Shown: in pieces, positions 7,685 to 20,523 of the stretch
Layout of the letters: each line of letters starts with the position of its first letter
Position numbering within the stretch: position 1 is the stretch's first letter
DNA from: Candidatus Saccharimonadota bacterium
Lineage (GTDB): Bacteria; Patescibacteriota; Saccharimonadia; Saccharimonadales; Saccharimonadaceae
DNA length: 37,856 nt
Direction of reading: 5' to 3'
NCBI GenBank assembly: GCA_027493025.1
Contig: JAPUDQ010000039.1
Location: 1 to 37,856, forward strand
Notes under the pieces: generated by a model
What the model saw: only the letters and a program-made list of their open reading frames with translations
What the model was told of the DNA's origin: nothing
Database searches by the model: none
Made by a program: the position numbers and the translations under genes

Positions 7685-8256
7685 AACTAATCGTGGGACT
7701 TGGTAATCCAGAAACCGTATATGACGGGAGTCGACATAATCTTGGGTTTTTTATTCTTGATTCATACGCTAATGCAAATAAGTTGCAGTTTCGGTCTAAA
7801 ACCCGTTTTAACGCAATGGTAGCCGAATTATCTACTGCTAAAGAAAAGACACTCCTCATCAAACCGACTACGTTTTACAATCTATCAGGAGAAGCCGTCC
7901 AGGCAATTACCAACTTTTATAAAATCCCAGCGCGCAATGTTCTGATAGTTCATGATGAAATAATGCTACCGATCGGCACGTTTCGCACGCGACTCGGTGG
8001 AAGTGACGCGGGTAACAACGGTATAAAATCCATTTCACAGCATATTACCCCTAATACCGCACGCATACGCATCGGTATAAAACAGCCATTACGAGACCAA
8101 ATTGATGACAAGAACTTTGTTCTTGGACAATTAACCACCGAGGAAAAGGAAGTGATCGGTCAGTTACTACCAGCCATCTCAGAGGCTATCGATACGTTCA
8201 TCAACGGATCATTTGCCCCCACAACGCGAGTTCAGCGCCCGATAATTGATAGTTAG
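7681..8256 (+). CDS. pth: Peptidyl-tRNA hydrolase
   Basis: 191 aa, the usual length. It cleaves peptidyl-tRNAs released by drop-off. GLGNPETVYDGSRHNLGF carries the catalytic His, with SRHN in place of the usual TRHN. KPTTFYNLSGEAV corresponds to KPxTFMNxSG, with Tyr replacing Met. VHDEIMLPIGTFR holds the conserved Asp. The glycine loop reads GGSDAGNNGIKSI instead of GGSAGGHNGLKSI, so one conserved His is replaced by Asn. The catalytic His/Asp/Asn set is kept, so activity is likely. The ATG overlaps the der stop codon. Confidence 0.94.
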   Translation: MKLIVGLGNPETVYDGSRHNLGFFILDSYANANKLQFRSKTRFNAMVAELSTAKEKTLLIKPTTFYNLSGEAVQAITNFYKIPARNVLIVHDEIMLPIGTFRTRLGGSDAGNNGIKSISQHITPNTARIRIGIKQPLRDQIDDKNFVLGQLTTEEKEVIGQLLPAISEAIDTFINGSFAPTTRVQRPIIDS

Positions 8257-8263
8257 TACTACT

Positions 8264-8327
8264 TTGTTGCAATAACAAGTTCTATCTTGGGTTAATTTTT
8301 GCAACAATGTCTCATTAGACGTATACT
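8264..8327 (+). promoter_or_regulatory. Promoter and putative auto-operator of the Fur-family gene
   Basis: TTGCAA (8299-8304), 17-bp spacer, TATACT (8322-8327), transcription start near 8334. Inverted half-sites TTGTTGCAA (8264-8272) and TTGCAACAA (8299-8307) surround it, and the second covers the -35 box. The same TTGCAA half-site builds the perfect palindrome at 14476-14508, so both are probably read by one regulator, most simply the Fur-family protein encoded here. Confidence 0.5.
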
Positions 8328-8336
8328 AGAAAGCCT

Positions 8337-8891
8337 ATGAATGAGCAAACTATTCGACAGAAACTAACCGAATCAGGATTACGCGTTACCTATCCAAGAC
8401 TTGCGCTCATCGCAGAGCTACAACGCAACGAAACGCCGCGAAGCGCCGCCGAGCTAAGTGCAACATTGACGCAATTTCCGCGCTCAAGCATCTACCGCAA
8501 CTTAGAAGCACTCGAAGAAACCAACCTTATCAAAAGTAGTATGCTCAAATGGGTACGCCGCTATGAGCTAGGCGACGAGCTTGTGCCACACCATCATCAC
8601 CTCACCTGTACGCAATGTGGAGCAGTAACACAATTTGACTCACCGAAACTCGAGAGACAACTGGTTAACGCTGCGCAAGCTAAGAATTACCAATTACTTT
8701 CTCATGTCGTCGAGCTACGCGGCCTTTGTAGGATATGTTCCGGACAGCCAATAGCCTCCGCTAGCATGCTCTCCCAAAGTATCAACACCATGAAGCGTTT
8801 GCGTCCAGCCGATCCTATCATGGAGAAACTGAAACATGAAGATCATTACCTGCCTTTTACGGGAGAAGACGAACCATCAGAAAAGCCATAG
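8337..8891 (+). CDS. Fur-family metal-responsive transcription regulator
   Basis: 184 aa. N-terminal winged helix with GLRVTYPRLALIAELQ and FPRSSIYRNLEALEETNLI, the Fur DNA-recognition region. The metal-binding part has VPHHHHLTCTQCG and a second pair, LRGLCRIC, giving the two CxxC motifs of the structural zinc site plus a His cluster. Motifs cannot tell Zur, Fur, Mur and PerR apart, but the tail-to-tail neighbour is a ZIP metal importer ending 20 bp away, which favours zinc or another divalent metal. ATG 8337 lies close to the start of transcription, giving a very short leader. Residues after about 145 are an extra tail. Confidence 0.88.
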   Translation: MNEQTIRQKLTESGLRVTYPRLALIAELQRNETPRSAAELSATLTQFPRSSIYRNLEALEETNLIKSSMLKWVRRYELGDELVPHHHHLTCTQCGAVTQFDSPKLERQLVNAAQAKNYQLLSHVVELRGLCRICSGQPIASASMLSQSINTMKRLRPADPIMEKLKHEDHYLPFTGEDEPSEKP

Positions 8892-8911: not shown

Positions 8912-9739
8912 TCATTGATCATGCTCATCATGAGTTTCAATATGGCTATGATCGTGTGTATTCTGTAGATCATCGCCATGAGAATGGTTAGCACTTGTGA
9001 GTATCGTCACGAGAGAAAGCATAACGACGCCAAGTAGAAGCATTATGGCTTGAATATTGCCTTCTCGACGCGGTTTTTCATGAATATCTGGGATAATATC
9101 GCTTGCCGCAATATAGATAAAGAACCCGGCCGTAAGCGCCAGAAGCGGCGCAACGGGGATCTGAACCGCCGAACCGACGATATAGGTACCAACAGCCGTT
9201 ACAACGGTTGCGAGAGCGCTGAGGACATTGACTAGGATGACTTTTTTTGGTTTCATTCCTTTACCAAGCAAAATGCCGAAATCGCCAATCTCTTGTGGCA
9301 ACTCGTGTGCAGCCACCGCAATACTGGTTGCGATACCCGCCGCTGGATTCAGGAGAAATGCTGCACCTATCGCCACACCATCAATCGCATTATGCAAGGT
9401 ATCTCCTACAATCACTAAGGCTGTGTGAGTCCGATTTTCAGTATCATGCGCTACATCATCATGATGATGGTGATGAAACCAGCCGAGAAGTCTCTCGAGT
9501 ACAAAAAAGCTCAAGAAACCACCGATAATATACCAAACCATCTGATGGACATCGTGTCCCTCGATAGCTTCTGGAATAAGTCCCACGAAGGCGGTCGCGA
9601 GCAATGCACCCGCACCAAAGGGTAGGGCATAGCGAACTACCTTGCTTCGTACGGCATCAGATTTTATAAGAAGCAGCCCGCCGATCAACGAAACAACGCT
9701 GCCAAATGTTGACCAAAATAATACCTGTAGTATGTCCAC
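8912..9739 (-). CDS. ZIP-family divalent metal transporter
   Basis: 275 aa with about eight hydrophobic segments. It would bring Zn2+ or a related metal into the cytoplasm. Signature motifs are HNAIDGVAIGA (fourth helix) and HELPQEIGDF (fifth helix), the metal path of ZIP proteins. A cytosolic His loop (WFHHHHHDD) and a His/Asp-rich C-terminus (HSHGDD...HDHSHIETHDEHD) could buffer metal. Start is GTG 9739 with AAGGAG 7 nt upstream. It is the last gene of the five-gene operon, 10 bp after the PLP enzyme, and faces the Fur-family gene. This placement ties the operon to metal homeostasis. Confidence 0.92.
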   Translation of the reverse strand: MDILQVLFWSTFGSVVSLIGGLLLIKSDAVRSKVVRYALPFGAGALLATAFVGLIPEAIEGHDVHQMVWYIIGGFLSFFVLERLLGWFHHHHHDDVAHDTENRTHTALVIVGDTLHNAIDGVAIGAAFLLNPAAGIATSIAVAAHELPQEIGDFGILLGKGMKPKKVILVNVLSALATVVTAVGTYIVGSAVQIPVAPLLALTAGFFIYIAASDIIPDIHEKPRREGNIQAIMLLLGVVMLSLVTILTSANHSHGDDLQNTHDHSHIETHDEHDQ

Positions 9740-9749
9740 TTTATTCTCC

Positions 9750-10832
9750 TTACATTGATTGTAACACTCGTAGCAACTGCTCTATGTCTTGATATGTTGA
9801 AAAAACATGACCGCTTATCCGAACGCTATCTTGTATGTCACTTCCAGCCATAACGCAATGATCACCGCCGCGAACTTGAATGTCATTATCCGCTAATATC
9901 ATCATGACATCAGTCGCCGTATAACCATTTACCCGAAATGAAACAATACCGCTCCCCCTGCAACGCTCCTGACTTTCCGCCGATTGCTCTAAAAGATTTA
10001 CCGATCGCAGACTCAGCAGCTTCAAAACCAGCTGGTTATGCCACAAGCTAAGATCGCGACTAACGGCAAGCATTCCATACTCCTGCAATATGTTAATCGC
10101 TGCAGCGAGACTCTCTATCACCACTACAGGTAACGTATTGGGCTCTACATGAGATCGGCTAACTTGATATTTCTTGGCAATATACAATACGGTCGTACCT
10201 GCAAGTCCACCTACTTTTTGAGAAGAAAAGAACAGTCCGTCGCAGCCTAACTGGTGTACATTGATTGGTTCTCGAGCTATGGCCTGAGAAGCATCGACGA
10301 CGAACCGTGAATTTTTCATCTGTCTTCGCAAATGCTCGATATCATTCTCCGAACCAAAAATATGATGTATATAGTTTGCAACCACCACACCGCCCGTATC
10401 TCGTACAGTATCATAGTCGTACTCTCCTGACATCGCATATCGAAGTGAAGAAGTATCGGTTATTGCAAAATAATCATTAATAGCGCGGTTGACACCTGAA
10501 TGATCGTCAGTACAATACTGGGCTGTCTGACCTGACCACAACGTTGCTATTACTTCAATGCAATGTCGCGTACTTGACATAAAATATATTTCATCAGAGT
10601 CCGCACCAACAAAACTTGCTATCGTGCTACGAGCAGCCTCTACACACGTGTACGCCTCAAGCGACCCCGCATAGGCCGCCTTACCTGGTGTGCCAACGTG
10701 AGTTTTCATATCATCCACCACACGCTGAATTACCCGTTCATGAAGAGGAAAAGCAGCGGCAACATCAAGATGCACAACGTCTTTTAAGGCTGGGTATGCC
10801 GTCCTCTCAAGCACGGGTTCAGCCCCTTTCAT
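9750..10832 (-). CDS. Class V PLP enzyme, SufS/cysteine-desulfurase-like
   Basis: 360 aa from ATG 10832, which overlaps the end of the preceding gene by 14 bp; longer in-frame starts lie inside that gene and are unlikely. PLP contacts include VDASQAIAREPINV and FFSSQKVGG, whose Lys is the probable Schiff-base residue (usual SGHK or SSHK has His where this has Gln). Near the C-terminus VRGGDHCVMAG matches the SufS RxGHHCA loop, keeping the active-site Cys. That supports cysteine desulfurase or selenocysteine-lyase-like chemistry over simple transamination. It is shorter than SufS (about 400 aa). Neighbouring cysteine-synthase and rhodanese domains suggest persulfide transfer. The substrate is unknown. 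Confidence 0.8.
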   Translation of the reverse strand: MKGAEPVLERTAYPALKDVVHLDVAAAFPLHERVIQRVVDDMKTHVGTPGKAAYAGSLEAYTCVEAARSTIASFVGADSDEIYFMSSTRHCIEVIATLWSGQTAQYCTDDHSGVNRAINDYFAITDTSSLRYAMSGEYDYDTVRDTGGVVVANYIHHIFGSENDIEHLRRQMKNSRFVVDASQAIAREPINVHQLGCDGLFFSSQKVGGLAGTTVLYIAKKYQVSRSHVEPNTLPVVVIESLAAAINILQEYGMLAVSRDLSLWHNQLVLKLLSLRSVNLLEQSAESQERCRGSGIVSFRVNGYTATDVMMILADNDIQVRGGDHCVMAGSDIQDSVRISGHVFSTYQDIEQLLRVLQSM

Positions 10833-12141
10833 AAGGCAATCCAGAGGCTCGCCAAGCCATAAGCCCGCCAGCAAGACTATAGGCTTCAACCCCTTTATCT
10901 CGGAGTAATTTTGCATAGATGCTACTCCGATCACCACGAGGACACACAAAGAGTACCGGCTTATCGGATGGTAGCGGATTGCCCTCAAGTAACATCTCCC
11001 TGAGCAGCTCTTCGGGATAGCACGCTGAACCCTTCAAGCGAAAATGGCGCATTGGCTTCAGTCCGCGGATATCAACCACAAGTGCTGATTCTTGCTCAAT
11101 CCACAACTGCGTTTCAGGTGATGGCTGTTTTTCAAGCTCTAATCGATCTTCATCTGATACACGCACTGTAAATACCCCCGTATCACGCTCGATACCAAAC
11201 CGTTCCGGGCATCGTTGCATGATATACGACATATACGGCTCGAGCCTGTCACATGCCACCACTACAGCCGCCTGCTTACTTCCATCCGCACGCGTCGTAT
11301 CATGCTGGGTTAAGTATTCAAGCGCAGCTGCAAAATTGCCGCCGGTGGTTGGCCCAGCCAAGACTCCTTCGCGCTCAACCAGTTGCCATAGAGCATTAAG
11401 TGCGGCGTGCGAATCAACTTCAACAATCTCCTCATAGGCGCTTTTATGAAATAAAGCAGTTTCAAATAACTCTGTCTTATTGCGTATTCCTGGAAGAAAA
11501 TCACTCGGATGCGCCACGACGCCAATAAATTTGGTTGTTTTTTGGTGCTTACGAGCATACTCGACAATACCACCGCTTGATCCGGCTGTTCCAACACCCG
11601 TAATACAGACGTCAACTTCACCAAGCTCGTCATATAATTCTCGTGCCGTTGTCATTTCATGGGCTGCTGGATTAGCAGGATTTGTGTACTGCCTGGTATG
11701 TATATATTTATCTGGTTGCGCATCGACCATCCGATCGATCACCGCTACAGCATTGTTCTCATCATCCGGATCAGGACATTCTGACCGTCCAGGCAAATTA
11801 ATAAGTTCTGTTTGGAGATAGGTTAGTTGCTGAGATACTTCCGGAATCTTAATCCTATTGGTAACACTCGTCAGGCGAACGCCGTGACGCAACGCTATCA
11901 TCTGTAATGCCTTTGCCGTATTACCGCTTGAGCTTTCAATAAGGTTTCCATCAGCTTTTTTAAGGGCGGCAAAATCAATTTCTTTCGTTAGCCATAATGC
12001 GGTGCGATCTTTAATCGAACCAAACGGGTTGAGGTATTCAAGTTTAATATATATGTCAGTCGATCGTAATCCATACTGAGCCCCGTCGATTTTTAAAAGC
12101 GGCGTGTTCCCGATAAGTTCTTCGATATTTTCAACAATCAT
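10819..12141 (-). CDS. Cysteine-synthase-like PLP enzyme fused to a rhodanese domain
   Basis: 440 aa. Residues 1 to about 325 are a fold-II PLP enzyme of the CysK/CBS/SbnA group: NPFGSIKDRTA (Schiff-base Lys), SSSGNTAKAL, NPANPAAHEMTT, GVGTAGSSGG and GPTTGGNFAAAL. Such enzymes beta-replace O-activated serine with sulfide or an amine; SbnA-type members make a precursor of 2,3-diaminopropionate. Residues about 340-440 form a rhodanese domain with active loop CPRGDRS (VCPRGDRSS), Cys intact, so persulfide carriage is possible. ATG 12141 overlaps the decarboxylase stop by 4 bp. The fusion and the SufS-like neighbour suggest sulfur is handed directly between enzymes; this is inference. Confidence 0.86.
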   Translation of the reverse strand: MIVENIEELIGNTPLLKIDGAQYGLRSTDIYIKLEYLNPFGSIKDRTALWLTKEIDFAALKKADGNLIESSSGNTAKALQMIALRHGVRLTSVTNRIKIPEVSQQLTYLQTELINLPGRSECPDPDDENNAVAVIDRMVDAQPDKYIHTRQYTNPANPAAHEMTTARELYDELGEVDVCITGVGTAGSSGGIVEYARKHQKTTKFIGVVAHPSDFLPGIRNKTELFETALFHKSAYEEIVEVDSHAALNALWQLVEREGVLAGPTTGGNFAAALEYLTQHDTTRADGSKQAAVVVACDRLEPYMSYIMQRCPERFGIERDTGVFTVRVSDEDRLELEKQPSPETQLWIEQESALVVDIRGLKPMRHFRLKGSACYPEELLREMLLEGNPLPSDKPVLFVCPRGDRSSIYAKLLRDKGVEAYSLAGGLMAWRASGLPYERG

Positions 12142-13508
12142 AATTCATCCTTTTTTATTGATATGCCATCAAACCAGTATCGCGCCGGCAACGGGTACCC
12201 AATCGCATACGAAGCACTGAACTCAGTACTGTAGGCACCCGTATGCGTAAACAAAACTACATCACCGACTTGTGGCTGCATGGCGAATGTGATAGGACGA
12301 TAAGAGAGGTAGTCCGTCTCCATACATAAATGCCCAAGCAATCCAACCGTTACGTCCTCCACGTGGCGTTCATGATCTGCTACCAGCAAGAGCGGATCAC
12401 CTATATGTTCGCTATCGGCAAAACAAAGTTGATTCCTTCCCATATCAACAATGAGCCACTGCTGTCCATCACGCCAAACTATATCGATAATAGAAGCCGC
12501 TACAACCCCGCTACCTGCGGCGATTGCGTTACCTGGTTCAAGCCATAGTTCAATCAGGTTATCACGCAAATATTCAAAAAGTTTCCCACCAGGACCTTCA
12601 GACAGCAAAACTTGCTTCAACTTATCTACACCAGCTTTGCCCGGAGTAAAATCAATACCAGATAGCTCTCCATAGAACCGTCCTTCACGACGGTGAATTC
12701 CAAACGATTTACGCATAAATGTTGCCTCATGAGTTCCACGAACCACGCTAGACTTAAGGTGGTCCTCAAACAGTCGTAATTGGTCATCATGTAAACCATA
12801 TTTATCCCCATAACCGCCCCCAATATCAAGTACGGTCGCATCTGAGAACCCATCATTTTGAAGAGATAGCAGGATATCTGCTGACAGCACTATCGCTTGA
12901 GATCTCTCCTGAACAGACTGTGAGTCAAGATGGAATGCGACGCCGCGTAACCTGCAGTTTGATTTTTTCAGTAAGGCGATTGCCGCCGCAAGGCTCTCTT
13001 GATCAAACCCAAAACGGCTTTGCTTTTGCACGCCAGGAAGCGAGATCAATGATCGCCCAAGCCGCAAAACGACGGAGATTACGCCTGTCCCCATCATTTC
13101 ATGCAAACGTTCTAACTCACTGTAATTATCAATGACAATTGTCATATGAGGAGTCTCGATCAGCTTCTTTAAAAAACTTGTCTTTTTGGGTCCTGTCGCT
13201 ATAATCGTCCGCGCTTCATAGCCAATCTGTTGTGCGCGAGCCAGCTCATCCTCAGATGCTACGTCAATACCGCTATACTTTTGAAGCGCAGATAACAGTG
13301 CGGGACTATGTGACGATTTTTGTGCAAAAAAGATGCGGCAATCAATCCCGAGCTCACTCACAGCTGATTGCATCTGCTGCACTCGCTCTATCGCATTTTG
13401 CGGCAATGTCACTGATACGGGGCGGTCTTCAGATTTCGTAATAGCAATGAGATCTTCTTTTCGATCCAGCAGTGACACCATGTCTTTTGTAAGTGCAGGT
13501 TTTAACAT
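12138..13508 (-). CDS. Fold-type III PLP-dependent decarboxylase (DapDC/ornithine-decarboxylase-like)
   Basis: 456 aa, alanine-racemase-type barrel plus C-terminal beta domain. FFAQKSSHSPAL holds the probable PLP Lys (usual YAxKAN). FHLDSQ corresponds to HxGSQ, DIGGGYG binds PLP phosphate, and LEPGNAI corresponds to EPGRxx with Arg changed to Asn. GHLCMETD keeps the active-site Cys and Asp of the dimer interface, and HTGAYS is the closing motif. Changes at the substrate-facing sites mean it is probably not a plain lysine-pathway LysA, and no other lysine genes are nearby. Siderophore clusters use such enzymes (SbnH type) to decarboxylate amino-acid intermediates. ATG 13508 overlaps the preceding stop by 7 bp. 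Confidence 0.82.
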   Translation of the reverse strand: MLKPALTKDMVSLLDRKEDLIAITKSEDRPVSVTLPQNAIERVQQMQSAVSELGIDCRIFFAQKSSHSPALLSALQKYSGIDVASEDELARAQQIGYEARTIIATGPKKTSFLKKLIETPHMTIVIDNYSELERLHEMMGTGVISVVLRLGRSLISLPGVQKQSRFGFDQESLAAAIALLKKSNCRLRGVAFHLDSQSVQERSQAIVLSADILLSLQNDGFSDATVLDIGGGYGDKYGLHDDQLRLFEDHLKSSVVRGTHEATFMRKSFGIHRREGRFYGELSGIDFTPGKAGVDKLKQVLLSEGPGGKLFEYLRDNLIELWLEPGNAIAAGSGVVAASIIDIVWRDGQQWLIVDMGRNQLCFADSEHIGDPLLLVADHERHVEDVTVGLLGHLCMETDYLSYRPITFAMQPQVGDVVLFTHTGAYSTEFSASYAIGYPLPARYWFDGISIKKDEL

Positions 13509-14452
13509 CCGGGGATATACTCCTCATCTATCTGATCTTCCATGCCAGTCCGATAACTTCCCGCCACCCATGACTCCCGCGTCACCTGTCGATGAAGCTC
13601 CACTAAACGTGTATGTAAATAGCACGGATCATGTTGCGCCTTTTCAATATGCTTACCTAGCTTGTAAAATGTCTCCTTTGACTGTTCGTCCAACTGCTCA
13701 AGAGAAACCGGCTGGTCGGCAAGCCGTGCTGCTACCATCGACTCACTGAGCGATAAACACCCAATGAGACGAGATGGGTCAATAGCATTTTTGATAAAAT
13801 CTCGCTGAATACTGAACTGTGTTTGATTACCCAACACTACTACCCGATCTTCAATCCCAGCTGCCGCTGCAAGGCTCATAAATCTCGTAAACACATCGAC
13901 ACCTTCACGCTCTGGTTTAATAACAAATACAAGGAGGTCATGTAAAAATAGCGTCGTTCCAAACGCATCATTACCAGCCACCGAATCTGTAATTAAGCAA
14001 TCTTTTGTGTCAAGAAAACTATGAGAGATCATATTTTCTGCTACTGATTGCGTAGAGTGGTGACATGCTGTACCAATACCTTCAGACTTATATGATCCAA
14101 GAGTAAAACTATGCGAAAATTTACCAAATGGACGGCCATATCGTCTCGTCAAATAGTTGTCTGGTGCTAAGCGCCATTGTCCCGACGCATATCCAGGTGG
14201 GGTAGTATTGAGAAACTCATCTGACTTCACTCGCAAATTATCTCCTGCAAGATACCGCCATATATCCTCCACCGACTGCTTGTTCGATAACTCAGGTTTT
14301 TGTGCTTTTACAGGCAGGAGGTTAGCAGTCTGACTATTAACATCGACGTCCAAGACTGCCGTTCGATAGTCTTTTTCATCAAGAAAAAGCGCAGTCAACG
14401 CCGAGAGGGTCGTCTTACCACTCCCACCTTTTCCAAAAAATCCAATTCTCAT
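13502..14452 (-). CDS. CooC/MinD-like P-loop ATPase, first gene of the operon
   Basis: About 316 aa from ATG 14452 (MRIGFFGKGG); ATG 14461 is an alternative. A TTG farther up lies in the operator and is unlikely. Deviant Walker A GKGGSGKTT with signature Lys, switch I VLDVDVNSQT and switch II ITDSVAGND place it in the SIMIBI class near CooC, the ATPase that helps load nickel into CO dehydrogenase. ACHH at about residue 120 could bind metal. No CO dehydrogenase is in the window. In this operon it may be a metal-insertion or maturation factor, or energise a biosynthetic step. It could also be a diverged ParA, but no ParB or plasmid genes are visible. Confidence 0.78.
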   Translation of the reverse strand: MRIGFFGKGGSGKTTLSALTALFLDEKDYRTAVLDVDVNSQTANLLPVKAQKPELSNKQSVEDIWRYLAGDNLRVKSDEFLNTTPPGYASGQWRLAPDNYLTRRYGRPFGKFSHSFTLGSYKSEGIGTACHHSTQSVAENMISHSFLDTKDCLITDSVAGNDAFGTTLFLHDLLVFVIKPEREGVDVFTRFMSLAAAAGIEDRVVVLGNQTQFSIQRDFIKNAIDPSRLIGCLSLSESMVAARLADQPVSLEQLDEQSKETFYKLGKHIEKAQHDPCYLHTRLVELHRQVTRESWVAGSYRTGMEDQIDEEYIPGC

Positions 14453-14475
14453 ACCGCACATGGTACACAAATAGA

Positions 14476-14528
14476 AGTAGTTATTGCAAATTTGTTGCAA
14501 TAACTACTATTGCTGCAACAGCTGTCAA
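14476..14528 (-). promoter_or_regulatory. Operon promoter overlapped by a perfect palindromic operator
   Basis: Minus-strand TTGACA (14523-14528), spacer 16-17 bp, then TAGTTA/AGTTAT near 14500-14506, with transcription starting about 14494. The perfect inverted repeat AGTAGTTATTGCAA (14476-14489), ATTTG, TTGCAATAACTACT (14495-14508) covers the -10 element and start site. This is the expected arrangement for a repressor site, and its half-site recurs in front of the Fur-family gene (8264-8307). Confidence 0.62.
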
Positions 14529-14548
14529 TCAAGAAACTAAGCACAATC

Positions 14549-14584
14549 AAAAAGCGCCAGGTAAGGGTGGGCATCACCTGGCGC
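14549..14584 (-). terminator. Intrinsic terminator of the candidate RNA
   Basis: On the minus strand GCGCCAGGT (14576-14584) pairs perfectly with ACCTGGCGC (14554-14562) around a 13-nt loop, followed by five T (14549-14553). It stops transcripts coming from 14893 before they reach the operon promoter at 14476-14528. Confidence 0.8.
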
Positions 14585-14893
14585 CGTTTAACCCTTCAAC
14601 CCACCCCAGTAAAAAACAGCGAAGCGTCATGGTCATATTCATATACGTGACCTGCGCCTGGAAAACCAATACGTTATATTCGCAATTTGTTTCCTACCTG
14701 ATCGGGATCCTTGCCCGAAGACAAGGGGTTAAAGGGGTTAGTATGCATACCGGGGTTATTGCAACAAATATGCAATATGCTTAAAGTGGAGGGTAGAAAA
14801 CTTCAAACGCCGATATGCAACCTAACAAAATTCTTATAGAATAGTGTTAAATGGGGTATAAGGTACAGTAAGTTTCCTCGCAGAAAACTTATC
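14549..14893 (-). ncRNA. Candidate structured non-coding RNA of about 345 nt
   Basis: A transcript unit with its own near-consensus promoter (14901-14929) and intrinsic terminator (14549-14584) and no convincing reading frame. Pairings visible on the minus strand: a 5' hairpin TAAGTTTTC (14883-14891) with GGAAACTTA (14869-14877); a hairpin capped by UUCG at 14709-14726 (CCTTGTC/GGCAAGG, one G-U pair); a long-range helix of 14 pairs with one bulge between 14726-14740 and 14589-14602; and GGGTGGG (14600-14606) complementary to CCCACCC (14565-14571) in the terminator loop, a possible pseudoknot. I could not match it to RNase P RNA, tmRNA, SRP RNA or 6S RNA. It could instead be a regulatory leader of the operon that terminates prematurely. 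Confidence 0.5.
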
Positions 14894-14900
14894 AATGGCT

Positions 14901-14929
14901 ATATTAGCACGTATTTAACATAATGTCAA
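14901..14929 (-). promoter_or_regulatory. Strong minus-strand promoter of the candidate RNA
   Basis: TTGACA (14924-14929), exact 17-bp spacer, TAATAT (14901-14906). This is among the best sigma-70 matches in the window. It points away from dprA and gives a start near 14893, with no gene following before the terminator. Confidence 0.75.
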
Positions 14930-14950
14930 CACTTTTTTGCATATTTCACT

Positions 14951-15796
14951 ATGAAAATCAATAACATTGCACCAGATGACCATCCATTTCTTCAGAGGTT
15001 ATCAACTATTGTCGAAAATCCAAAAAGCTTATACTATATCGGAAACCTGCCCGAGGACGATTGTACACGCGTCGCGATTGTCGGGAGCCGCCGGCCAACA
15101 ACCTATGGCCGAACCGTTACCGAGCAGCTCGCTCGTGAACTCGCACGCCGTCAAGCCATCATACTCAGCGGTATGGCTCTTGGAGTTGACGCCCTAGCTC
15201 ATGCAGCAGCTATCGCTGGAGGCGGCCGTACGATAGCAATTCTACCGAGCGGGCTAGACGACCCCTATCCCAAAACAAACCACGGCTTGGCACGGCGGAT
15301 ACTAAGCTCTGGCGGGGCGCTTATCTCTGAATACCCCGAAGGCTATCGGCCACGCTTGTATGATTTTTTGCGCCGCAACCGCATAGTAAGCGGTCTCAGC
15401 GATATCGTAGTCGTCGTCGAAGCTAACCTGCGCAGCGGTACAATGAGCACCGTTACCCAAGCACTTGACCAGGGAAGAACAGTTTATGCGGTGCCCGGAC
15501 CAATCACGAGCCCACTCAGCGCCGGCTGCAACCGTCTTATCGCTCAGGGTGCGCGACCTCTTACGGGTGTTGATAGTTTTCTCGAAGAAATCGGTCTGAC
15601 TGGCCCGCAAAAACTTATCTTTGGCGAGAATGATGCAGAAGCTACATTGTTGCAATTGCTGCAATCTGGCGTATCTGATGGTGATGAGCTTCTTACTAAA
15701 AGTCAACTTGATTATGACACGTATACGACAACGATGACCATGCTTGAGATCAAAGGCATAATTCATGCTTGTGGTGGAAATCAATGGCGATTGTAA
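14951..15796 (+). CDS. dprA: DNA-processing protein DprA
   Basis: 281 aa. DprA binds incoming single-stranded DNA and loads RecA during natural transformation. The Rossmann-type core is clear: VAIVGSRRPTTYGR, SGMALGVDALAH, AILPSGLDDPYP, SEYPEG, FLRRNRIVSGLSD and EANLRSGTMSTV, then VPGPITSPLSAGCNRLI. The last ~60 residues (LLQSGVSDGDELL...TMLEIKGIIHACGGNQWRL) fit the winged-helix tail. It lacks the N-terminal SAM domain of some longer homologues. It is divergent from the candidate RNA, and no other competence gene is in the window. Confidence 0.95.
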   Translation: MKINNIAPDDHPFLQRLSTIVENPKSLYYIGNLPEDDCTRVAIVGSRRPTTYGRTVTEQLARELARRQAIILSGMALGVDALAHAAAIAGGGRTIAILPSGLDDPYPKTNHGLARRILSSGGALISEYPEGYRPRLYDFLRRNRIVSGLSDIVVVVEANLRSGTMSTVTQALDQGRTVYAVPGPITSPLSAGCNRLIAQGARPLTGVDSFLEEIGLTGPQKLIFGENDAEATLLQLLQSGVSDGDELLTKSQLDYDTYTTTMTMLEIKGIIHACGGNQWRL

Positions 15797-15859
15797 ATAA
15801 ACTTCTTTTACCATTTACACTAGTTTCATGACACTTATTTTTACTAAAAATACATCTAT

Positions 15860-15917
15860 GTACTTTTGACCGCAAAAGTACCAAAGTCGGGGTCCCCACG
15901 AAACATGTTTCGTGGGG
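15860..15917. repeat. Two stacked palindromes at the left edge of GC-rich cassette 2
   Basis: GTACTTTTG (15860-15868) and CAAAAGTAC (15873-15881) form a 9-bp inverted repeat. Just after it, positions 15894-15917 are a perfect 24-bp palindrome (CCCCACGAAACA and its complement). They sit 60-120 bp after dprA where base composition changes abruptly. They could be a dprA terminator without a T run, a protein-binding site, or the end of an inserted element. Confidence 0.8.
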
Positions 15918-15993
15918 TGATAGTGTCTCAGGGCTGTCCTCATCATCCCAGGAATCTCAGGTATGATTCCTTGTTTCCATATCCCTCGCTTCT

Positions 15994-16485
15994 TTGGATG
16001 ATTGCGGGCGCCCCGAACCCTGTAGCGACAAACGTCCCCCTTTCGACTATCTCGATTCGGATGTTGTCCAAACGAACAATCAGACGAGTCGAGATGGGAG
16101 GATAGGGGTCATTCCCGGCGCTGCGGCTAAAGTCGATGCGGCGGACCGCCATCGCGATCTAGTCCGCACGAACCAGGAGCTGATCGAGAGCTACCCTCAC
16201 CTCTTGGGTAGCGGCGACTTTGCCTGGGGCGACAGCGCCTACTACATGGGAGCCGTCGCTGGAGGCAGCGGCCTGACCTGGCGCCAAGATGCCAAACTCG
16301 GCAACCTGGCGCTCCAGGTGGTCATCGACCGCGTCAACGCAGAGCGTGCTCGCTGGCTCAAGGAACGCCGAGCCAATGGCCGCTCCCACAGCTGGCTCAA
16401 CCAGAAAAGCCAGCCCGGTGAGGAGTATCTCGCTGTCCGCAAGAGCCTCGAGTCCGGAGAGGGATGGGTCACGACCGCGCTCTGA
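15994..16485 (+). CDS. Unrecognised protein with GC-rich codons, possibly 5'-truncated
   Basis: Frame open from ATG 15994 (163 aa), but only the part from about 16110 onward looks coding: third positions are mostly G/C and the peptide is smooth (AADRHRDLVRTNQELIESYPHLL, split by me for length: AADRHRDLVRTNQ then ELIESYPHLL; later WRQDAKLGNLALQVVIDRV). No start codon with a ribosome-binding site stands out, so the true start is uncertain and the gene may have lost its 5' end. C-terminal half is basic and helical (NAERARWLKERRANGRSHSW). No family recognised. Codon use contrasts with dprA and topA on either side. A strong hairpin terminator follows at 16515. Confidence 0.5.
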   Translation: MDDCGRPEPCSDKRPPFDYLDSDVVQTNNQTSRDGRIGVIPGAAAKVDAADRHRDLVRTNQELIESYPHLLGSGDFAWGDSAYYMGAVAGGSGLTWRQDAKLGNLALQVVIDRVNAERARWLKERRANGRSHSWLNQKSQPGEEYLAVRKSLESGEGWVTTAL

Positions 16486-19131: not shown

Positions 19132-20523
19132 CTAACGAATATTTACCGCCGGACGCTCTTCGAGATTAAAATATTTGTCACCGCTTTTTATACGAGTAGC
19201 TACCGAACGTTTTCGACCGACAGAAATATACGGTACAGCTGCCTTAAATGCTGGGCCGATCCTCCCGATTTCCGAAACACGTTTAAGCACCTGCTTGCCC
19301 CAATAATCTCGCACCACTCCATCGCCATGGTCACCAAGTCGTTCGTGAATTGCACGAAGAAATAATTCACGTTCCCGATCAGTTTTTTCATTCTTAACTA
19401 TCTCTGCAACCACCGAAGCATTGCCCGTCTCAAGCGCCATCAGCATGTCGTCGCTGAAATACATCCCCATACTACCAGTACTATGTAGATCTACAACCAT
19501 TCCACTTGGCTGCTTTGGATCAATCTGCTTATTATCCGTCGTATCGATAAACTTACTCATCATCGCCATAAGCGTTTCCGTACACCCCTCTTGATAGAGT
19601 AATGAGGGCTGAGACTGTCCCCATGGGCTACGTGATTTTGTCAAGAGACGCTGTGCGCGAACGACACGATCAACCTGCACCGGTGATTTGCCCGAACGCT
19701 CAAGAAATCGCCGCATAAAAAGTGGGGTTGCTCGAAACTCCCCTTGACCAAGAAAGGAAGTGCCATCTTTAGCTATAATATCCTCCAGAGCGTCATGAGT
19801 CAGAATGGAGAAAACTTGTAGATAAAGGTGCTCACGATCAGGCTCTCGTCCTTCAATACATGCCACCTCATCCCATGCCTGCTGATATATGGCCGCACCG
19901 CGGACTGGATGAGTCACATAGCTAACACCATTATTTTGACGAGTTTGCCCGCTATGAGCCGCCTCTGCAATGATATAGCCCGCAACAACCAACGGGTCCG
20001 TATCGTCATGTATCGGCGCTCCAATTCGCACCGCAAGCTCCTCACGCATCCGCCCACTGTACGGATCTAGAGTAGCCTCAACAGCAGCTAGAACATCATC
20101 AACCGCCTCACTAATATCAAGCTCGACGTGTTCTCGAATCTCCCTTACACGAGATTTTGATACACCGAACATCTTCGCCATCTCAGCTTCGTTCTCTTTT
20201 TGGACATTTCCCAGATGAACCCACTCCGCAACAAGCAGGTCTCGTCCCGTCAACAACTCTGTCTGTTTTTCAGTTTCGACTAAACGCAGGTCTGTTTTGG
20301 AACCAACGACGTGTTTGCTCGCTTCAAGACATACGCTAAGAGCAGTATCTGCCATACCGCGAATCACTCGCGCCTGCACCGGTACGGTACGGCGCTCTTC
20401 AAGTGTCGAAATAAGATCATCCAATGTTTGAGTCTGTCCATCTCCAGAGCGTAAACTTTCCCCAGGGTAATAAAAGGCTTCAAATTCCTGCTGGTTGGTA
20501 TAAGGAGTAGACAGGGCTATCAT
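19132..20523 (-). CDS. HTH protein with RelA/SpoT-like HD domain
   Basis: 463 aa. Residues about 95-140 resemble a sigma-region-4-like helix-turn-helix (AEMAKMFGVSKSRVREIREHV). The middle (about 185-260) reads AHSGQTRQNNGVSYVTHPVRGA then ILTHDALED, the H...HD...ED metal-site pattern of the ppGpp hydrolase domain of SpoT. No synthetase, TGS or ACT domain is present, so it could be a small alarmone hydrolase or an HD enzyme on another nucleotide. The C-terminal ~170 residues are unassigned. It converges on topA (10 bp apart) and diverges from the HARE-HTH gene. Its promoter lies so close to the ATG that the leader would be only about 8 nt. Confidence 0.7.
   Translation of the reverse strand: MIALSTPYTNQQEFEAFYYPGESLRSGDGQTQTLDDLISTLEERRTVPVQARVIRGMADTALSVCLEASKHVVGSKTDLRLVETEKQTELLTGRDLLVAEWVHLGNVQKENEAEMAKMFGVSKSRVREIREHVELDISEAVDDVLAAVEATLDPYSGRMREELAVRIGAPIHDDTDPLVVAGYIIAEAAHSGQTRQNNGVSYVTHPVRGAAIYQQAWDEVACIEGREPDREHLYLQVFSILTHDALEDIIAKDGTSFLGQGEFRATPLFMRRFLERSGKSPVQVDRVVRAQRLLTKSRSPWGQSQPSLLYQEGCTETLMAMMSKFIDTTDNKQIDPKQPSGMVVDLHSTGSMGMYFSDDMLMALETGNASVVAEIVKNEKTDRERELFLRAIHERLGDHGDGVVRDYWGKQVLKRVSEIGRIGPAFKAAVPYISVGRKRSVATRIKSGDKYFNLEERPAVNIR

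Follow-up and report, generated by a model that had tools for sequence, protein, structure and literature searches.

A probable zinc-regulated operon of a Saccharibacterium unites a CooC-like ATPase with three PLP enzymes and may make a zinc ligand

Why would a bacterium with a 0.91-Mb genome keep a CooC-like ATPase, three pyridoxal phosphate (PLP) enzymes and a metal transporter in one operon? The question is raised by a stretch of 37,856 nucleotides (the window) from Candidatus Saccharimonadota bacterium (GenBank assembly GCA_027493025.1, contig JAPUDQ010000039.1), whose genome is ~98% complete. Five minus-strand genes follow each other in the order CooC-like ATPase, Y4yA-family PLP decarboxylase, CysM-like/rhodanese fusion, SufS-like enzyme and ZIP transporter. 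They overlap by 7 bp (cooC/y4yA), 4 bp (y4yA/cysK) and 14 bp (cysK/sufS), and a 10-bp gap leads to the ZIP gene. Assignment with Pfam and NCBIfam gave matches to CbiA/ParA P-loop, Orn_Arg_deC_N plus Orn_DAP_Arg_deC, PALP plus Rhodanese, Aminotran_5 (SufS best) and Zip, in agreement with the gene families and junctions of a preliminary description. That description had also assumed few biosynthetic genes in the organism, which fits the genome: the CysK domain of the operon is its sole PALP-family protein, and one other class V PLP enzyme is encoded at another site. We read the locus, with a probability of about one half, as a Zur-type zinc-starvation operon that makes an N,S ligand for zinc and supplies a CooC-like metallochaperone to serve it.

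The link to zinc was found at the promoter. The palindromic operator TATTGCAACAAATTTGCAATA, a perfect copy, lies upstream of cooC as part of a longer 31-bp palindrome. This site, a second copy with one mismatch (TATTGCATATTTGTTGCAATA) and a Fur-family gene on the plus strand add to what had been described before (Table 1). The identical 21-mer is present at the fur/cooC junctions of two related genomes (G071, G111), and variants occur in three more (G004, G031, G093). When one mismatch was allowed, the 21-bp palindrome had matches in 15 of 61 genomes and a reversed control pattern in none of the 61. In genomes that do not carry the operon, the same operator adjoins genes for ZIP (G024, G037, G028), ZnuABC (G044, G023, G006) or a COG0523 GTPase (G014), and a Fur-family gene is usually present as well. 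With COG0523 (G014, where the slot is pth/der/topA) or ZIP (G024), it has the same position in the chromosome, next to pth and der. The scores of hidden Markov models for the Fur family did not separate Fur, PerR and Zur for the window regulator. Since the operator is shared with the ZIP, ZnuABC and COG0523 loci of related genomes, the regulon is very probably Zur-type and zinc-linked, which is our firmest conclusion, and the neighbouring genes argue strongly for zinc as the signal. The metal left general in the preliminary description is narrowed to zinc by the shared operator, these neighbours and an island of ribosomal protein genes in Streptomyces described below.

Zur typically controls ribosomal paralogs, COG0523 genes and zincophores (PMC5472717, PMC2770081). 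As in the Zur regulons of B. subtilis and Streptomyces coelicolor, we observed a Fur-family regulator, a palindromic operator at the promoter and a zinc importer within the unit, and COG0523 and ribosomal paralogs stand beside related copies of the operon genes. The operator found here, TATTGCAAnnnnnTTGCAATA, differs from the known 7-1-7 sequence tGaNNatSatNNtCa, and neither the ATPase nor the PLP enzymes are among the Zur targets in the literature found.

The linkage of the genes, first described from the window alone, recurs in relatives. The decarboxylase was searched in 394 genomes of the same family, and a further phylum sample was used for the CooC-like ATPase. Strong decarboxylase matches were obtained in 7 of the 394. 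The full order cooC - y4yA - cysK/rhodanese - sufS is present in the window genome (G000) and in G031, G004, G071 and G111, spanning five genera of the family with that of the window included. G093 has cooC-y4yA-cysK only, its contig breaking off within cysK, and the order cooC - y4yA - cysK/rhodanese is also seen in G739, a member of another Patescibacteria family. In G003, y4yA is found in a different context with arginase and ATP-grasp genes. A profile search of the genome contigs with the decarboxylase alignment returned two loci only, both already among these relatives. All cooC-bearing operon relatives have a divergent Fur-family gene beside cooC, the window being the exception, with its Fur gene at the other end of the operon. 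Judged from gene order, the five-gene arrangement is a conserved unit and more than chance. In G093, y4yA is spread over two adjacent reading frames (L065, 520-1934), possibly by a frameshift or as a decaying gene.

The ATPase has the deviant Walker A motif GKGGxGKT. A profile search against the PDB gave CooC1 as the best match (6e-13), and in the AlphaFold model (pLDDT 85) CooC1 was also top by fold (E 2e-10), ahead of NifH, BchL and MinD proteins. CooC (PDB 3kje) is the ATPase for nickel maturation of carbon monoxide dehydrogenase (CODH). Its C112-x-C114 aligns with C-H-H in the window ATPase, and nine homologs with identities down to 26% all keep C130 and H132. The earlier comparison to CooC is therefore upheld for the fold and the position of the metal motif and has to be corrected for the motif itself, which is CxH (CHH/CYH) in place of CxC. 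Unlike CooC, the window ATPase is longer and linked to zinc genes, and no CODH/Prismane-family protein, the client of CooC, was found in the source genome. The COG0523/CobW zinc GTPases (YciC/ZagA) are likewise NTPases of the wider metallochaperone superfamily, and in G014 one occupies the same slot in regulation and on the chromosome, and in Streptomyces one lies beside the enzyme genes; they are G3E GTPases, and no close homology to the window ATPase is claimed. With moderate confidence, at even odds, we propose that the CooC-like ATPase handles zinc.

Of the 394 family genomes, 23 encode a CooC-like ATPase of this type, and the phylum sample added 11 more. At 30 of the 33 loci examined, the distance between the CooC-like gene and a Fur-family gene is no more than 300 bp, and a relaxed operator precedes the CooC-like gene in 20 of the 23 family members. 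The partner genes vary. Six genomes have CysM/rhodanese alone (G205, G013, G100, G142, G552, G441), G023 has a PvcA-type isonitrile synthase (DIT1_PvcA, E 4e-17), G034 has two class I/II aminotransferases, and G152 has an ornithine cyclodeaminase relative, a protein of 440 aa that matched no family, and COG0523. Proteins resembling short-chain dehydrogenases/reductases occur in G108, G063 and G176, and ZIP is the only partner in G162 and G146. Small Cys-tailed proteins that have an NCC motif and end in DC accompany the ATPase in G032, G081, G102, G098, G679 and G581 and are related, some of them weakly, to the SCO5389 family. A search of plasmids for the CooC-like gene gave one Nonomuraea record, where the next gene is a true SCO5389 family member and not one of the PLP genes. 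These loci suggest that the SCO5389-type small protein is a conserved ATPase partner that is also present in Actinobacteria. Across the loci, the ATPase is thus the part that stays and the enzymes are the part that changes.

Some of these loci deserve mention in their own right. In G023 (L067), an ATPase under a Zur operator followed by a PvcA-type enzyme is a possible isonitrile zincophore system in a Saccharibacterium. The genes of G152 (L145, 5649-10123) form one strand-wise run, in which the ornithine cyclodeaminase relative is SbnB-like and the 440-aa protein looks ATP-grasp-like. Small proteins with NCC or NC and a C-terminal Asp-Cys were noted beside the ATPase at L138, L142, L144, L147 and L150, and at L033:9953-10363.

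The decarboxylase belongs to the Y4yA family (full-length similarity, ~28% identity over 97%) and retains the Lys, EPG, CMETD and GAY motifs of diaminopimelate decarboxylase. Elsewhere, Y4yA genes lie beside SbnA-like enzymes in siderophore clusters. In the fusion protein, Lys44, ESSSGNT, CPDP122, PGIR220 and the rhodanese Cys400 are conserved. Its CysK domain contains the PLP lysine, the SGNT loop and the PLP-phosphate loop, has a short PGIR loop as in E. coli CysM and not the long CysK loop, and has an insert, C-[PL]-x-P, with a conserved Cys. In the rhodanese domain, the Cys does not vary among the 13 aligned CysM/rhodanese fusions. The domain scored below the curated cut-offs with 164 bits vs 344 (cysKM) and 145 vs 350 (SbnA). 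A tree built on the PALP columns alone joined it (support 100/97) to the copies from Streptomyces and to CysM/rhodanese proteins encoded at other loci with a CooC-like gene, separate from the siderophore-type/SbnA enzymes (98/94) and from E. coli CysK/CysM. Membership in an NRPS-independent siderophore (NIS) pathway of the SbnA/SbnB/SbnH type was rejected, since the CysK domain falls outside the SbnA clade and no IucA/IucC NIS synthetase was found in the source genome.

In the SufS-like enzyme, the Lys (SSQK) and the catalytic Cys (GDHC) are invariant in the 7 sequences compared, and the family score is 127.6 against a SufS cut-off of 475. As in SufS/IscS desulfurases with rhodanese acceptors, the catalytic Lys and Cys and the sulfurtransferase Cys are conserved, with the activity here being predicted; unlike them, the enzyme has a low family score and no SufBCD/IscU partner within the operon. 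The invariant catalytic cysteines of the rhodanese and the SufS-like enzyme point to sulfur transfer. Taken together, the motifs point to a possible sulfur relay through the PLP enzymes that would end in a thiol-containing amino acid, later decarboxylated; the final step to an aminothiol ligand is one that we infer.

The same three enzymes were found outside the Patescibacteria. Two Streptomyces records carry y4yA - cysK/rhodanese - sufS in this order, with identities of 28%, 40% and ~24-26%. On a plasmid of Streptomyces NBC_01237 (L039), genes for L33, L31, a COG0523 GTPase, a His-rich protein and the triple follow one another in forward direction, with those for L28 and S14 pointing away from them, and a scan with TGANNATSATNNTCA gave a Zur-box-like candidate site with 2 mismatches 5' of y4yA. 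Since this triple follows alternative ribosomal proteins and COG0523, it lends independent support to the zinc link. The region upstream of it (13281-16343) also contains an apparent S18-like frame, and the His-rich protein has the repeat CGHVAVPHxDHVDY.

We propose the following sequence of events. The Fur-family repressor with bound zinc would occupy TATTGCAACAAATTTGCAATA over the promoter, and falling zinc would release the operon. ZIP would then import Zn2+ into a cell in whose genome no ZnuA-family zinc-binding protein was found. The SufS-like enzyme would draw sulfur from cysteine as a persulfide, Cys400 of the rhodanese domain would accept it, and the fused CysM-like domain would add it to aminoacrylate formed from serine or O-phosphoserine. 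Decarboxylation of the resulting amino acid by the Y4yA enzyme would give a small, intracellular ligand of the aminothiol type, which would suit zinc well as an N,S ligand. The CooC-like ATPase would move zinc between this ligand and client proteins via the C-x-H at the position of the CooC metal site. COG0523 GTPases are thought to move zinc to client proteins likewise. The order of the relay and the identity of the ligand are weakly indicated parts of this scheme; the product is what we infer from the enzymes, and among several options a ligand that contains sulfur fares best, while still being doubtful. On a broader scale, we tentatively consider a zinc-acquisition module across Patescibacteria, in which a Zur-controlled C-x-H CooC-type ATPase would be the fixed core and zinc-ligand pathways would be interchangeable (CysM/rhodanese with or without Y4yA and SufS, PvcA isonitrile synthase, ornithine cyclodeaminase type, aminotransferases). 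ATP hydrolysis would load or unload zinc on the ligand made to order.

Several observations weigh against a zinc-ligand operon of this kind. Zinc as the signal is deduced from neighbouring genes, and the CxH loop has low AlphaFold confidence. In some genomes, the ATPase occurs with ZIP or an SCO5389-like protein and without any of the PLP enzymes, as if its function were independent of a ligand; from these loci we argue that its core job would be metal handling and not biosynthesis. The operon has no exporter, receptor or dedicated importer for a ligand, and the lack of an exporter speaks for an intracellular ligand, the alternative being export through the product of an unlinked gene. Remaking cysteine is of little use to a cell that already has it, which bears on the acceptor substrate of the CysM-like domain. 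A CooC-like gene is adjacent to neither Streptomyces cluster, and in Streptomyces BHT-5-2 (L040) no zinc island was present and the TGANNATSATNNTCA scan gave no Zur-box near y4yA.

Could the operon instead make a secreted metallophore of the SbnA/SbnH type, with the CysK domain N-linking O-phosphoserine to an amino acid, Y4yA decarboxylating it and a diamine or EDDS-like (ethylenediamine disuccinate) product being exported? We regard this as unlikely. Its appeal comes from other Y4yA genes, which lie beside SbnA-like genes in clusters with IucA/IucC, opine dehydrogenase, MFS and TonB receptor genes, with an annotated SbnA in Sulfitobacter, and with ornithine cyclodeaminase and MATE genes in Mycobacterium. 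Moreover, EDDS is a known Zur-controlled zincophore of Amycolatopsis (PMC4993170). The [S,S]-EDDS pathway of Amycolatopsis japonica resembles our proposal as a small zinc ligand under Zur control, a likeness at the level of description. The siderophore clusters of the staphyloferrin B type and the rhizobial y4x-y4yA type share with the window a Y4yA-type decarboxylase beside a CysK-family enzyme. However, the window CysK domain belongs to a separate clade and is fused to a rhodanese with an invariant Cys, its partner is SufS-like, the genome has no NIS synthetase, and no SbnB-like gene, dehydrogenase, exporter or receptor is present within the operon. The SbnA/SbnH analogy of the preliminary description thus remains for the decarboxylase family, and its CysK part and the siderophore reading fall away. 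Equally improbable, in our estimate, is a system for metal-sulfur cofactor or persulfide supply, where the SufS-like enzyme and the rhodanese would feed sulfur and the ATPase would provide a client with a metal-sulfur centre; such a system would be induced by zinc limitation because the client replaces a zinc enzyme. The conserved sulfurtransferase cysteines, the CooC/NifH/Mrp-like fold and the minimal form of CooC-like ATPase plus CysM/rhodanese in six genomes are consistent with this, but no client enzyme is linked to the operon, CODH is missing from the genome, a decarboxylase is unexpected in such a system, and PvcA, ornithine cyclodeaminase or aminotransferases replace the sulfur enzymes in other genomes.

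Two further alternatives concern the signal and the unit itself. ZIP and ZnuA families include manganese and iron carriers, and Fur-family regulators can serve other metals. With model scores that fail to tell Fur, PerR and Zur apart, the operon might answer to iron or manganese; we give this little chance, since COG0523 under the same operator (G014) and the Streptomyces island are hallmarks of a zinc regulon (PMC2770081, PMC5472717). That unrelated genes merely share one operon is suggested by its rarity in the family and is very improbable: the order is kept over five genera and partly in another Patescibacteria family, the operator is kept within the family, and the enzyme triple recurs in Streptomyces, so that conservation largely refutes it.

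Table 1. Positions of the operon genes, the regulator gene and the candidate control sites in the window
Feature	Position	Strand	Basis or remark
ZIP/ZupT-type zinc transporter	8912..9739	-	GTG start; family match
SufS-like class V PLP enzyme	9750..10832	-	ATG at 10832; family match
CysM-like PALP domain with C-terminal rhodanese domain	10819..12141	-	open reading frame and family match
Y4yA-family fold-type III PLP decarboxylase	12138..13508	-	open reading frame and family match
CooC/MinD-type P-loop ATPase, GKGGSGKTT	13502..14452	-	conserved start MRIGFFGKGG at 14452; longest reading frame from TTG 14500
Fur-family (Zur-type) regulator	8337..8891	+	convergent with the ZIP gene; family match
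Palindromic operator TATTGCAACAAATTTGCAATA	14482..14502	-	putative site; overlaps the place where the promoter -10 is expected
Putative -35 element TTGACA of the operon promoter	14523..14528	-	direct reading; no matched -10 passed the promoter scan
Second operator copy TATTGCATATTTGTTGCAATA, one mismatch	14757..14777	-	palindrome scan
Degenerate operator half-site, 3 mismatches	8254..8274	+	just 5' of the Fur-family gene

Between dprA and the operon, a candidate unannotated structured RNA was noted at 14545-14880 (-). It has a sigma70-like promoter at 14929-14901, a very stable fold (z -6.6) and a terminator hairpin, whose stem shows compensatory changes across genomes. Conservation of the 3' part extends to 9 of 21 genomes, counting that of the window; the others of the nine have it at different loci, and an Rfam search of this leader region matched no known RNA. 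A reading frame of 463 aa at 19132-20523 (-) matched nothing in Pfam or NCBIfam.

Zur operons, CooC and Y4yA enzymes are each known separately. In the literature searched, mostly open and with few subscription journals, we found nothing that ties CooC-type ATPases, Y4yA or CysK-rhodanese fusions to zinc, and the zinc role of the ATPase and the product are undescribed there. There is a real chance that the CooC-centred module with its changing partners is a new kind of system. As reduced epibionts, Saccharibacteria have next to no biosynthesis of amino acids, yet here three PLP enzymes are kept for what appears to be zinc stress. If our reading is true, the ATPase family would join COG0523 among the zinc metallochaperones, an undiscovered sulfur-based zinc ligand would be indicated, and the operator would allow the zinc regulon of an uncultured radiation to be mapped. 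How epibionts win zinc from their hosts then becomes a directly testable question, also in Streptomyces NBC_01237.

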